Shown: positions 15,033 to 33,034 of the stretch, piece after piece
Position numbering within the stretch: position 1 is the stretch's first letter
Layout: the number at the start of each line of letters is the position of its first letter
From: Clostridiales bacterium
GTDB lineage: Bacteria; Bacillota; Clostridia; Lachnospirales; JAQSXR01
Length of the DNA stretch: 64,000 bases
Assembly: GCA_029256575.1 (NCBI GenBank)
Contig: JAQSXR010000030.1
Span: 1 to 64,000 of the forward strand
Reading direction: 5' to 3'
Notes under the pieces: model-generated
What the model saw: only the letters and a program-made list of their open reading frames with translations
What the model was told of the DNA's origin: nothing
Database searches by the model: none
Made by a program: the position numbers and the translations under genes

Positions 15033-15065
15033 TATAAATATAGTGAAATGAAAAGGAGCAATATA

Positions 15066-16457
15066 ATGAGTTTGATGATGGTAAAGGAACTTTATCGTAA
15101 TAAGGAAAATTATCTAGGTAAGGAAGTAGAAGTTGGAGGTTGGATAAGAACAATCAGAGACTCTAAATCGTTTGGATTTATTGTTATGAATGATGGATCG
15201 TTTTTTGAAAATTTACAAATTGTATATCACGATACCCTTGAAAACTTTCAAGAAATATCGAAGTTAAATGTAGGAGCATCCGTAATTGTTAAGGGTAATT
15301 TAATTGAAACACCAAATTCAAAACAACCCTTTGAATTACAAGCAACTAATGTATGTATAGAAGGAGTATCATCTCCGGAATACCCATTGCAACCAAAAAG
15401 ACATACATTTGAATACCTAAGATCAATCTCTCATCTAAGACCAAGAACAAATACATTTGCAGCAGTTTTTAGAATACGATCTATGGTGTCCTTTGCAATT
15501 CATCAATTCTTTCAAGATAGAGGATTTGTATATGTTCATACTCCACTTATAACAGGAAGTGACTGTGAAGGGGCAGGAGAAATGTTTCGAGTTACGACAC
15601 TCGATATTAAGAACATCCCTACAGATGAAGATGGACAAATTGATTATAAACAAGATTTCTTTGGAAAAGAAACAAATCTTACCGTAAGTGGTCAATTAAA
15701 TGTTGAGACATATGCTATGGCATTTAGAAATGTATATACTTTTGGACCAACTTTTAGAGCTGAGAATTCGAATACAGCAAGACATGCAGCAGAATTCTGG
15801 ATGGTAGAACCTGAAATCGCATTTGCTGATTTATCAGACGATATGAGATTAGCGGAAGATATGCTTAAATACATTATTAAGTATGTTTTAGAAAATGCTC
15901 CAGAAGAAATGCGTTTCTTTAATGATTTCGTGGATAAAACTTTGTTGGATCGATTGAATAATATATTAAGTTCTGACTTTGGTCGATTAACGTATACAGA
16001 GGCAGTTGATATACTAGAAAAACACAAAGATAAATTTGAATACGAAGTGTTCTGGGGATGCGATTTACAAACAGAGCATGAGAGATTCTTAACAGAAGAA
16101 ATATTTAAAAAGCCAGTATTTGTAACAGACTATCCAAAAGAAATTAAAGCCTTCTACATGAAATTAAATGATGATAATAAAACAGTAGCGGCTATGGATT
16201 GTCTAGTTCCTGGAGTTGGTGAAATTATTGGTGGTAGTCAAAGAGAAGAAAATTATGATGTTCTTGTTAGAAGAATGGAAGAATGCGGATTAAAAATCGA
16301 AGATTATGAATGGTATTTAGATACTAGAAGATATGGAACGAATAAACACGCTGGATTTGGTCTTGGGTTAGAAAGAGCTATCATGTATTTAACGGGTATG
16401 TCTAACATTAGAGATGTAATACCATTTCCAAGAACGGTAAACAACTGCGAATTATAA
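15066..16457 (+). CDS. asnS: Asparagine-tRNA ligase
   Basis: AsnRS charges tRNA-Asn directly with asparagine. The 463-residue protein has an N-terminal OB-fold anticodon-binding domain ([21 protein letters not shown]), then the class II core with motif 2 ([26 protein letters not shown] would be the full block; key residues FRAE and RHxxEFWM) and motif 3 ([15 protein letters not shown]) ending [11 protein letters not shown]. The start is the ATG at 15066 after AAAGGAG at 15053-15059; an earlier ATG at 15048 would sit on that ribosome site. The organism also encodes GatCAB (30 kb), so both direct and indirect Asn-tRNA formation may be possible. Confidence 0.96.
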
Positions 16458-27684: not shown

Positions 27685-27713
27685 TTGACAAAATGAATTA
27701 AATGAAATACAAT
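27685..27713 (+). promoter_or_regulatory. Promoter of the aspS-gatC T-box operon
   Basis: TTGACA at 27685-27690 and TACAAT at 27708-27713 are spaced by 17 bases, giving a transcript start near 27720 at the 5' edge of the T-box leader. Confidence 0.75.
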
Positions 27714-27719
27714 AAGAAA

Positions 27720-28010
27720 AATTATATATGACACAACTTAAAGACAATGATGGAAAGAGTAAATCAAAAGGGTAGTCACAGAGAGCCGAGAAGGGTGCGA
27801 ATCGGTACGTATTTTTGAAAGAAGAACATTCCGGAGTCACTAATCGAAAGGTATACGAGTAGACTTAGTCGTGACGGCACGTTATAGCCGAAAAGCATAG
27901 ATGTGCTGAAAAGAGTGGATTATTTTTATAATCTAGTTGGGTGGTACCGCGGAAGATATAAGCTTTCGTCCCATAATTATTTGGGATGAGGAGCTTTTTT
28001 TATACTTAAA
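27720..28010 (+). promoter_or_regulatory. T-box riboswitch with overlapping Glu/Asn specifier codons
   Basis: Stem I elements are visible: GGAAAGAGTA near 27753, AGAGAG near 27780 and GGGTGCGAA near 27793. The specifier region reads GAAGAACATTCCGGAG (27821-27836). Counting back from GGAG the codon is AAC (Asn, 27825-27827); a one-base shift gives GAA (Glu, 27824-27826). The T-box proper, TGGGTGGTACCGCGG, is at 27938-27952. The terminator stem spans about 27961-27995, with CGTCCC opposite GGGATG and then a T run. Uncharged tRNA should allow read-through into aspS-gatC, gatA and gatB. Confidence 0.9.
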
Positions 28011-28052
28011 AATCCTCATCTAATAAAACTAATTTATTAAATGGAGGTTTCT

Positions 28053-30152: not shown

Positions 30153-31610
30153 ATGTCAAAACAATTAACTAGTATGTATGTTAGTGAATTAATTGAGGGT
30201 TTAGAAACAAAACAATTTTCCTCTGTAGAAATAACAAAAGAATATTTATCAAAAATAGATGAAAAAGAAAAAAGTGTGAATGCATATATAACGATATCCG
30301 CAGACAAAGCTTTGGAAAAGGCAAAAGAAGTTGATGAGAAACGTCAAGCAGGAGTAAAACTTGCACCAATAGCAGGGATTCCAGTAGGGATTAAAGACAA
30401 TATTTGCACAAATGGAATAAGAACGACTTGTGCTTCTAAAATATTATCAAATTTTATTCCAGTTTATGATGCAACTGTTATGGAAAAATTAAATAAAGAT
30501 GATATTGTAATGCTTGGAAAACTCAATATGGATGAATTTGCAATGGGATCTACTACTGAAAATTCAGCATTTAAGAAGACCTCTAATCCTGTGAATTTAG
30601 AATATGTTCCAGGGGGTAGTTCTGGAGGATCAGCAGCAGCAGTCGCAGCTGAGGAAGCAGCTTTTACGCTGGGGTCAGATACAGGCGGATCAATTAGGCA
30701 ACCAGCTGCCTTTTGTGGGGTTGTAGGTATGAAGCCAACCTATGGAACCGTATCAAGATATGGGCTAATTGCCTTTGCATCTTCCCTTGATCAAATAGGG
30801 CCAGTAACGAAGAATGTAAGAGACTCAGCCATCGTGCTTAATGCGATTACAGGGCATGATGCTAAAGATTCTACCTCAGTGAATAGAGCATATTCTGATT
30901 ATACAAAGGGTATAGAAAATGGAGTAAAGGGACTCAAAATTGCGTTACCGAAAGAGTACTTTGCAGAAGGAATTAATGAAGAAGTTAAGACAATCGTACT
31001 AAATGCAGCAAAACAATACGAAAAACTTGGTGCCCAAATCGTAGAAGTATCAATGAGTACAATCGATTATTCTCTTCCAGCTTACTATGTTATCTCAAGC
31101 GCAGAAGCATCATCGAACCTTGCTCGATTTGATGGAGTTAAATATGGATTAAGATCTGAGAATTATAGCAATATTGATGAGTTATACAAAATGAGTAGAA
31201 GCGAAGGTTTTGGTGATGAGGTAAAGCGTAGAATAATGCTTGGATCCTTTGCATTAAGTTCTGGATATTATGATGCATACTATAAAAAAGCACTTCAAGT
31301 TAGAACATTGGTAGTAAATGATTTTAATAATATATTCTCAACTTGTGATGTAATTCTATCTCCGGTAGCACCTACAGTAGCTTTTAAACTAGGGGAAAAG
31401 ACGACAAATCCACTTGAAATGTATATGGGAGATATCTATACAGTTCCAGTTAATATCGCGGGTTTACCAGCAATATCTTTGCCTTGTGGAAAAGATAGTA
31501 AAGGACTACCTGTAGGAATGCAACTAATTGGAAAACCATTTCGTGAAGCAGATCTTCTTAGGACAGCATATGCTTATGAACAAGATATTTATATGGGAGG
31601 TGCAAAATAA
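30153..31610 (+). CDS. gatA: Asp/Glu-tRNA amidotransferase subunit A
   Basis: This 485-residue amidase-signature protein releases ammonia from glutamine or asparagine. The Lys-cisSer-Ser triad is visible: K in GIKDN, Ser in [10 protein letters not shown], and the nucleophile Ser in [17 protein letters not shown] spans the upstream stop codon, and the ATG at 30153 follows. The gene overlaps gatB by one base. Together with the GatC domain fused to AspRS it completes the GatCAB set, which converts Glu-tRNA-Gln and/or Asp-tRNA-Asn to the cognate amide. Confidence 0.96.
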
Positions 31611-33034
31611 TGGGTATAAAAGACTATGAAATGGTCATTGGACTTGAAGTTCACGTTGAATTAAAGACGAAATCAAAAATATTTTGTGGATGTTCAACGG
31701 AGTTTGGAGGGGACCCGAATACTCAATGTTGTCCAATTTGCATGGGGATGCCTGGTACACTTCCTGTTTTAAATGGTAAAGTAGTAGATTATGCAATAAA
31801 AGCAGGACTCGCAACAAATTGCACAATTGCATCATTTTCAAAGCAGGATAGGAAGAATTATTTCTATCCAGACTTACCAAAAGCATATCAAATCTCTCAA
31901 TACGACCTACCTCTTTGCGAACATGGCTTCTTAGATATAGAAAGTGAAAGTGGTTCAAAGAGAATAGGGATTACGCGTATTCATATTGAAGAAGACGCAG
32001 GTAAATTAGTTCATAAAGAGAATGGTGGAACTTTAATTGATTATAATCGATGTGGCGTTCCATTAATCGAGATTGTATCGGAACCAGATATTCGATCTGC
32101 AGAAGAAGCAAAAGCTTATTTGCAAAAGTTAAGAGCCATAATGTTATATGTGGATGTATCAGATTGTAAAATGAATGAAGGTTCTTTCCGATGTGATGTT
32201 AACCTATCAGTACGAAAAATAGGAGAAGAAAAACTCGGCACAAGAACAGAGATGAAAAATCTTAACTCCTTCCAGTTCATTTCTAACGCTATAGAATTTG
32301 AGTTTCAAAGACAGGTTCAGGCAGTTGAGAATGGGGAAGAAATCGTTCAAGAAACAAGAAGATACGATCAAACAACTAAAAAAACATTCTCAATGCGTAA
32401 AAAAGAAGATGCCCATGACTACAGATATTTTCCTGATCCAGATTTAATGCCAATAATAATTAATGCTGATAAGCTACAAGAGATAAAGATTAGTATACCT
32501 CAACTTCCGGATGAACGAAAAACTATATATATGTCGGAATATGGATTAACGCCATATGATGCAGAGCAATTAGTAAATATAAAAGAAATTGCTGATTATT
32601 TTGAAAGCGCAGCTAAAATAACAAGTCACCACAAAATACTTGCTAATTTAATATTGTCTGAGATTTTTAGATTACTTCCTCAAGATAGCTTTGATATTCC
32701 TATTTCACCTGCCAATTTAGCTAACCTTACAAATTTAATTGGTGATGAAATAGTAAACTCAAGTACAGCAAAGAAAGTAATTCAAGAAATGTGGATTAAG
32801 GATCAAGATCCTCAAGGAATTGTTAATGAACAAGGGCTAGAACAAATTAATGATGAAACTATTCTTGAAGAATACGTTACAGAAGTATTAAATAAAAATA
32901 AAAAATCAGTTGATGATTATCTTAGTGGAAAAGGGAAAGCTTTACAAGCTATGATAGGCCAAACAATGGCTATCACAAAAGGTAAAGGAAATCCAACTAA
33001 GATTCAAAAAATATTAATGGAACGGTTAAAGTAA
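31610..33034 (+). CDS. gatB: Asp/Glu-tRNA amidotransferase subunit B
   Basis: The TAATG junction overlaps gatA by one base, so translation is coupled. The 474-residue protein has the conserved start YEMVIGLEVHVELKT, the zinc-binding cysteines (CGCSTEF and CCPICMGMPG), the kinase-like ATP site, and the C-terminal YqeY-like tail (IVNEQGL...MAITKGKGNP) that contacts the tRNA D-loop. GatB phosphorylates the misacylated tRNA and accepts the ammonia channelled from GatA. It is the last gene of the T-box operon. Confidence 0.96.
   Translation: MGIKDYEMVIGLEVHVELKTKSKIFCGCSTEFGGDPNTQCCPICMGMPGTLPVLNGKVVDYAIKAGLATNCTIASFSKQDRKNYFYPDLPKAYQISQYDLPLCEHGFLDIESESGSKRIGITRIHIEEDAGKLVHKENGGTLIDYNRCGVPLIEIVSEPDIRSAEEAKAYLQKLRAIMLYVDVSDCKMNEGSFRCDVNLSVRKIGEEKLGTRTEMKNLNSFQFISNAIEFEFQRQVQAVENGEEIVQETRRYDQTTKKTFSMRKKEDAHDYRYFPDPDLMPIIINADKLQEIKISIPQLPDERKTIYMSEYGLTPYDAEQLVNIKEIADYFESAAKITSHHKILANLILSEIFRLLPQDSFDIPISPANLANLTNLIGDEIVNSSTAKKVIQEMWIKDQDPQGIVNEQGLEQINDETILEEYVTEVLNKNKKSVDDYLSGKGKALQAMIGQTMAITKGKGNPTKIQKILMERLK

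Follow-up and report, generated by a model that had tools for sequence, protein, structure and literature searches.

The two-codon T-box that precedes the tRNA-dependent transamidation operon of Clostridium acetobutylicum (Saad 2013, PNAS), as described in PMC4052509, contains Asn and Glu codons that overlap and are one base apart. According to the same source and to PMC4206432, where a study of transamidation in this species (Saad 2012, JBC) is cited, its host encodes three AspRS-type enzymes and AsnRS, and has the Asn-tRNA amidation route. A similar arrangement in a similarly equipped host is found in a Clostridiales bacterium, in the 64,000-nucleotide stretch of contig JAQSXR010000030.1 that was analysed here as a whole (the window). 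The codon-shifting Glu/Asn precedent invoked in the first-pass annotation of this locus is real and published. The locus differs from that of C. acetobutylicum by the fusion of AspRS to GatC, and the genome of the window encodes GlnRS, whereas PMC2494555 counts C. acetobutylicum among genomes reported to be without this enzyme. Additionally, the dual reading published for C. acetobutylicum is a putative one here.

The identity of the leader as a T-box, described as clear in the first-pass annotation, is far beyond chance. A covariance search of Rfam matched it to RF00230 over the full length of the model (1-219, not truncated) with an E value of 2.5e-25 and a score well above the gathering score of 93 bits, and this was the sole Rfam match in the window (Table 1). 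The UGGN bulge, the antiterminator and a competing terminator are all present, and the specifier codon agrees with the regulated pathway, as AAC (Asn) stands ahead of the genes of Asp-tRNA-Asn amidation. The four-base strands of the helix that closes the specifier loop covary in relatives (GAAG/CTTC, GGAG/CTCC, CGGG/CCCG, CAGA/TCTG, and others). Minimum free energy folding confined to Stem I missed the T-box fold, with a score no better than that of shuffled sequences, and was left out of account.

Table 1. Features of the leader and of the downstream operon in the window.
Feature	Position	Strand	Evidence or remark
Promoter-like TTGACA-17-TACAAT	27685..27713	+	Consensus scan, 11/12; chance also expected to yield such sites
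T-box leader	27738..27976	+	RF00230, 117.4 bits
GGAA, specifier-loop closing helix, 5' strand	27752..27755	+	Pairs with 27829-27832
AGUA motif, 3' of GGAA	27758-27761	+	
GAA (Glu), -1 frame, possible second codon	27824..27826	+	Sequence; G27824 kept in 29/36 gatCAB T-boxes
AAC specifier (Asn), canonical frame	27825..27827	+	Rfam alignment; positional rule; 36/36 relatives
TTCC, specifier-loop closing helix, 3' strand	27829..27832	+	Rfam alignment, relatives
UGGU, antiterminator bulge, variable base U	27942..27945	+	Sequence and Rfam alignment
Intrinsic terminator hairpin with T run	about 27960..28002	+	Fragment -19.1 kcal/mol, fold z -3.9
aspS-gatC fusion, 698 aa	28041..30137	+	NF001750, 829 bits, residues 5-590; TIGR00135 (gatC), 82 bits, residues 609-698
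gatA	30153..31610	+	TIGR00132, 658 bits
gatB	31610..33034	+	NF004014, 662 bits

The specifier loop reads TTGAAAGAAG-AAC-A-TTCC-GGAG, and its positions 27824-27827 are GAAC, so that GAA and AAC, shifted by one base, are both present as had been noted. The first-pass annotation left the choice of the specifier to a covariance alignment. In the Rfam alignment, the specifier columns are occupied by AAC, with G27824 directly 5' and A27828 directly 3' of it, and not by GAC or CAT. The frame is fixed, since the closing helix GGAA/TTCC begins one base past AAC. A positional rule (codon-1-4-1-GAG) also gives AAC as the codon of this leader and GAA as the -1 frame. When applied to ten other T-boxes of the host genome, the rule yielded a codon that fits the downstream gene in all ten: TTC for pheS and aroF (DAHP synthase), GCA for alaS, GTA for acetolactate synthase and valS, TGG for trpE and trpB, TAC for tyrS, GGC for glyS, and AAA for lysS. 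The last of these genes is a second class II lysS (T-box at L013:1281-1557, host contig C23); T-box control of LysRS has been described as very rare (PMC2916919). In T-boxes, a purine that follows the specifier stacks (PMC7583486); AAC is followed here by the purine A27828, and GAA by C.

The genes aspS-gatC, gatA, and gatB all match curated family profiles with scores that exceed the respective cut-offs, which corroborates the assignment of the downstream genes as an Asp-tRNA amidation operon. Translation of the fusion gene probably starts at ATG 28053, upstream of which GGAGG is located (28042-28046). The same domain fusion is found in the bifunctional AspRS/GatC of family NF009460 (PRK12820); however, with 643 bits, the fusion protein of the window stays below the cut-off of that curated family (1379) and lies outside it. 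Its AspRS part has the motif RDMGG; the corresponding residues are RNLGA in the stand-alone AspRS of the host and RDHGG in most other bacterial AspRSs linked to gatC. A His at this position marks a non-discriminating AspRS. Charging of tRNA-Asn by the fused AspRS is plausible in the light of these motifs. Two close fused relatives (L055 and L056, 67% identity) have no T-box upstream.

Results of our analysis make it highly probable that the leader is a canonical transcription-attenuating T-box with uncharged tRNA-Asn as its main effector, while tRNA-Glu may be a second, weaker one. The GUU anticodon of uncharged tRNA-Asn would pair with AAC, and the 3' end of the tRNA with UGGU, which would stabilise the antiterminator and permit RNA polymerase to continue past the leader into aspS-gatC, gatA, and gatB. 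The products of these genes would form Asp-tRNA-Asn and amidate it to Asn-tRNA-Asn; with charged tRNA-Asn, the terminator would form. Any response to tRNA-Glu would be weaker and would involve GAA in the -1 frame. We count in favour of the Asn T-box, which we regard as very likely, the purine after AAC, the agreement of the frame rule in ten of ten cases, the presence of a tRNA-Asn GUU gene in the host genome, and the invariance of AAC in relatives. Against it we count that UGGU can only wobble with G73 of tRNA-Asn, although a U-G pair at the variable bulge base is known from Trp T-boxes (PMC7778990), and that the host encodes AsnRS, so that amidation is not its sole source of Asn-tRNA.

The significance of G27824 was assessed with a comparative set. 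Matches to GatC in 295 genomes of the order yielded 80 upstream regions, to which named relatives were added; 36 distinct T-boxes of gatCAB operons had a readable loop, 34 of them read by script and two (L239 and L244) by eye. All 36, from about 20 genera, have AAC in frame 0, and the AspRS encoded behind them is of bacterial type, with or without fusion to GatC, or of archaeal type. At -1, 29 leaders have G, three A, two T, and two C; the variable base of UGGN is U in 28 leaders and C in the other eight. The control consisted of 27 AAC T-boxes located before hisS, asnS or aspS, found in a phylum-wide pattern scan that left the -1 base unconstrained. Among these, G is at -1 in 14 and U is the UGGN base in 11. 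In T-boxes with other codons, 11 of the 36 readable ones have G at -1 (hand count). The upstream regions of asnA, also examined as a control, contained no convincing T-box in 30 loci.

The excess of G at -1 in gatCAB T-boxes over the other AAC T-boxes (Fisher p 0.027) and over those with other codons (p 4e-5), as well as the excess of U in UGGN over the other AAC T-boxes (p 0.004), was calculated with related genomes treated as independent, and since shared ancestry is ignored, these p values are too small. G at -1 is enriched in gatCAB T-boxes yet far from being their signature, and strict constraint concerns AAC alone. The overlapping pair proposed for this leader stands as to the presence of both triplets but not as to their equality, as the base completing GAA is less conserved than AAC. 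The hosts of T-boxes without G at -1 encode AsnRS in four of five cases, too few to link the two traits.

Several leaders deserve separate mention. L239 (genome G228) and L244 (G137, minus strand) precede aspS-gatC regions in two other, more distant families and have an atypical Stem I; their loops, as read by eye, appear to be CAAC, with Gln CAA in the -1 frame and Asn AAC in frame 0, and their bulges are UGGC. One may see in this combination an exchange of the second codon. In the gatCAB T-boxes of family f5 (L180, L187, L192, L195, and relatives) and in L240, GGAGACTC replaces AGTA opposite the specifier; these leaders have a divergent Stem I and Rfam scores of only about 65-70 bits. The AAC T-boxes before hisS (of the hisS-aspS type) and asnS of other Bacillota (L305-L334) share the specifier and the architecture with the T-box of the window but control other genes, and G at -1 and U in UGGN are rarer in them than in the gatCAB set. 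In hisS T-boxes of distant Bacillota from this group (e.g., L310, L319, L320, L326, and L330), the loop reads AACAC, i.e., Asn AAC and, two bases on, His CAC, where His or Asp would be expected.

The reading that we find slightly easier to accept than to doubt is that the leader senses Asn only, and that G27824 is simply the base that such T-boxes often have in the linker joining the S-turn GAA to the codon. Since about half of the unrelated AAC T-boxes (14/27) have this base, its occurrence before AAC does not stand far above chance, and GAAC by itself is weak evidence for two codons. G also stands at -1 in the host T-boxes of aroF (TTC) and valS (GTA), where it would give GTT and GGT, respectively, neither of them a sensible codon for the gene, and the T-box database lists thousands of T-boxes with alternative frames (PMC7778990). 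What speaks against this reading is that G at -1 and U as the UGGN base are more frequent in gatCAB T-boxes than in the remaining AAC T-boxes.

A true two-codon switch, in which the operon is induced by binding of tRNA-Asn (AAC) as well as of tRNA-Glu (GAA), is conceivable, though we lean against it. GAAC itself, the published precedent, and the enrichment of G at -1 are in line with it, and the strongest evidence for a contact with tRNA-Glu comes from the bulge. Wherever the discriminators could be read, the host genome included, tRNA-Asn has G73 and tRNA-Glu has A73; they were taken manually from the sequences of the acceptor stems (Asn ...GGGGA-G, Glu ...GTC-A), as the ends given by ARAGORN are one base off for some tRNAs. 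The U of UGGU forms a Watson-Crick pair with A73 of tRNA-Glu and a wobble pair with G73 of tRNA-Asn, which mildly favours a Glu contact. This evidence is weakened by five leaders that combine GAAC with UGGC, the C of which does not pair with A73. Seven gatCAB leaders lack G at -1 altogether, and the base after GAA is C rather than a purine.

The metabolic context also speaks against two codons. The host encodes GlnRS (TIGR00440, 698 bits) in addition to GltX, a stand-alone bacterial AspRS, an archaeal-type AspRS, AsnA, and an AsnRS (TIGR00457), the gene of which lies in the same window (about 15033-16454, +) without a T-box. Among the 33 genomes with a gatCAB T-box, GlnRS is encoded in all and AsnRS in 22; in the remaining 11, amidation is probably the only source of Asn-tRNA. 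As GlnRS is available in the host and in all 33 genomes, GatCAB is not needed to supply Gln-tRNA, and the argument from a pathway that produces Gln-tRNA as well as Asn-tRNA, by which the two codons would fit exactly, fails. Sensing of Asn makes sense across the set, while the argument for an additional Gln-tRNA service does not. On balance, Glu seems somewhat improbable as a second effector. It is unlikely that a dual Asn/Glu T-box has been kept in bacteria with GlnRS and senses tRNA-Glu for a reason other than Gln-tRNA supply; should this be so, tRNA-Glu may, for example, report on the glutamate/glutamine state, which limits the amide donor of GatCAB. Control by tRNA-Asp, suggested by AspRS being the first enzyme of the operon, or by tRNA-Glu alone, to whose A73 UGGU fits best, is highly improbable and largely refuted by the alignment, as the loop contains no Asp codon in any frame, in keeping with the earlier remark that neither codon is Asp, and AAC, unlike GAA, is present in 36 of 36 leaders.

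The two-codon idea and its C. acetobutylicum precedent have already been published; our results add the invariance of AAC, which GAA does not share, a lean of the UGGN base towards tRNA-Glu, and the presence of GlnRS in the hosts. The comparative set provides natural single-base variants of the specifier region (GAAC, AAAC, TAAC, and CAAC) and of the bulge (UGGU and UGGC). Should tRNA-Glu work here, the explanation given for two codons, a balance between the Asn-tRNA and the Gln-tRNA from a single amidase, would prove too narrow, as the hosts in question produce their Gln-tRNA directly. Otherwise, the leader would be a warning that overlapping codons arise easily in T-box loops, because G is common before the specifier.
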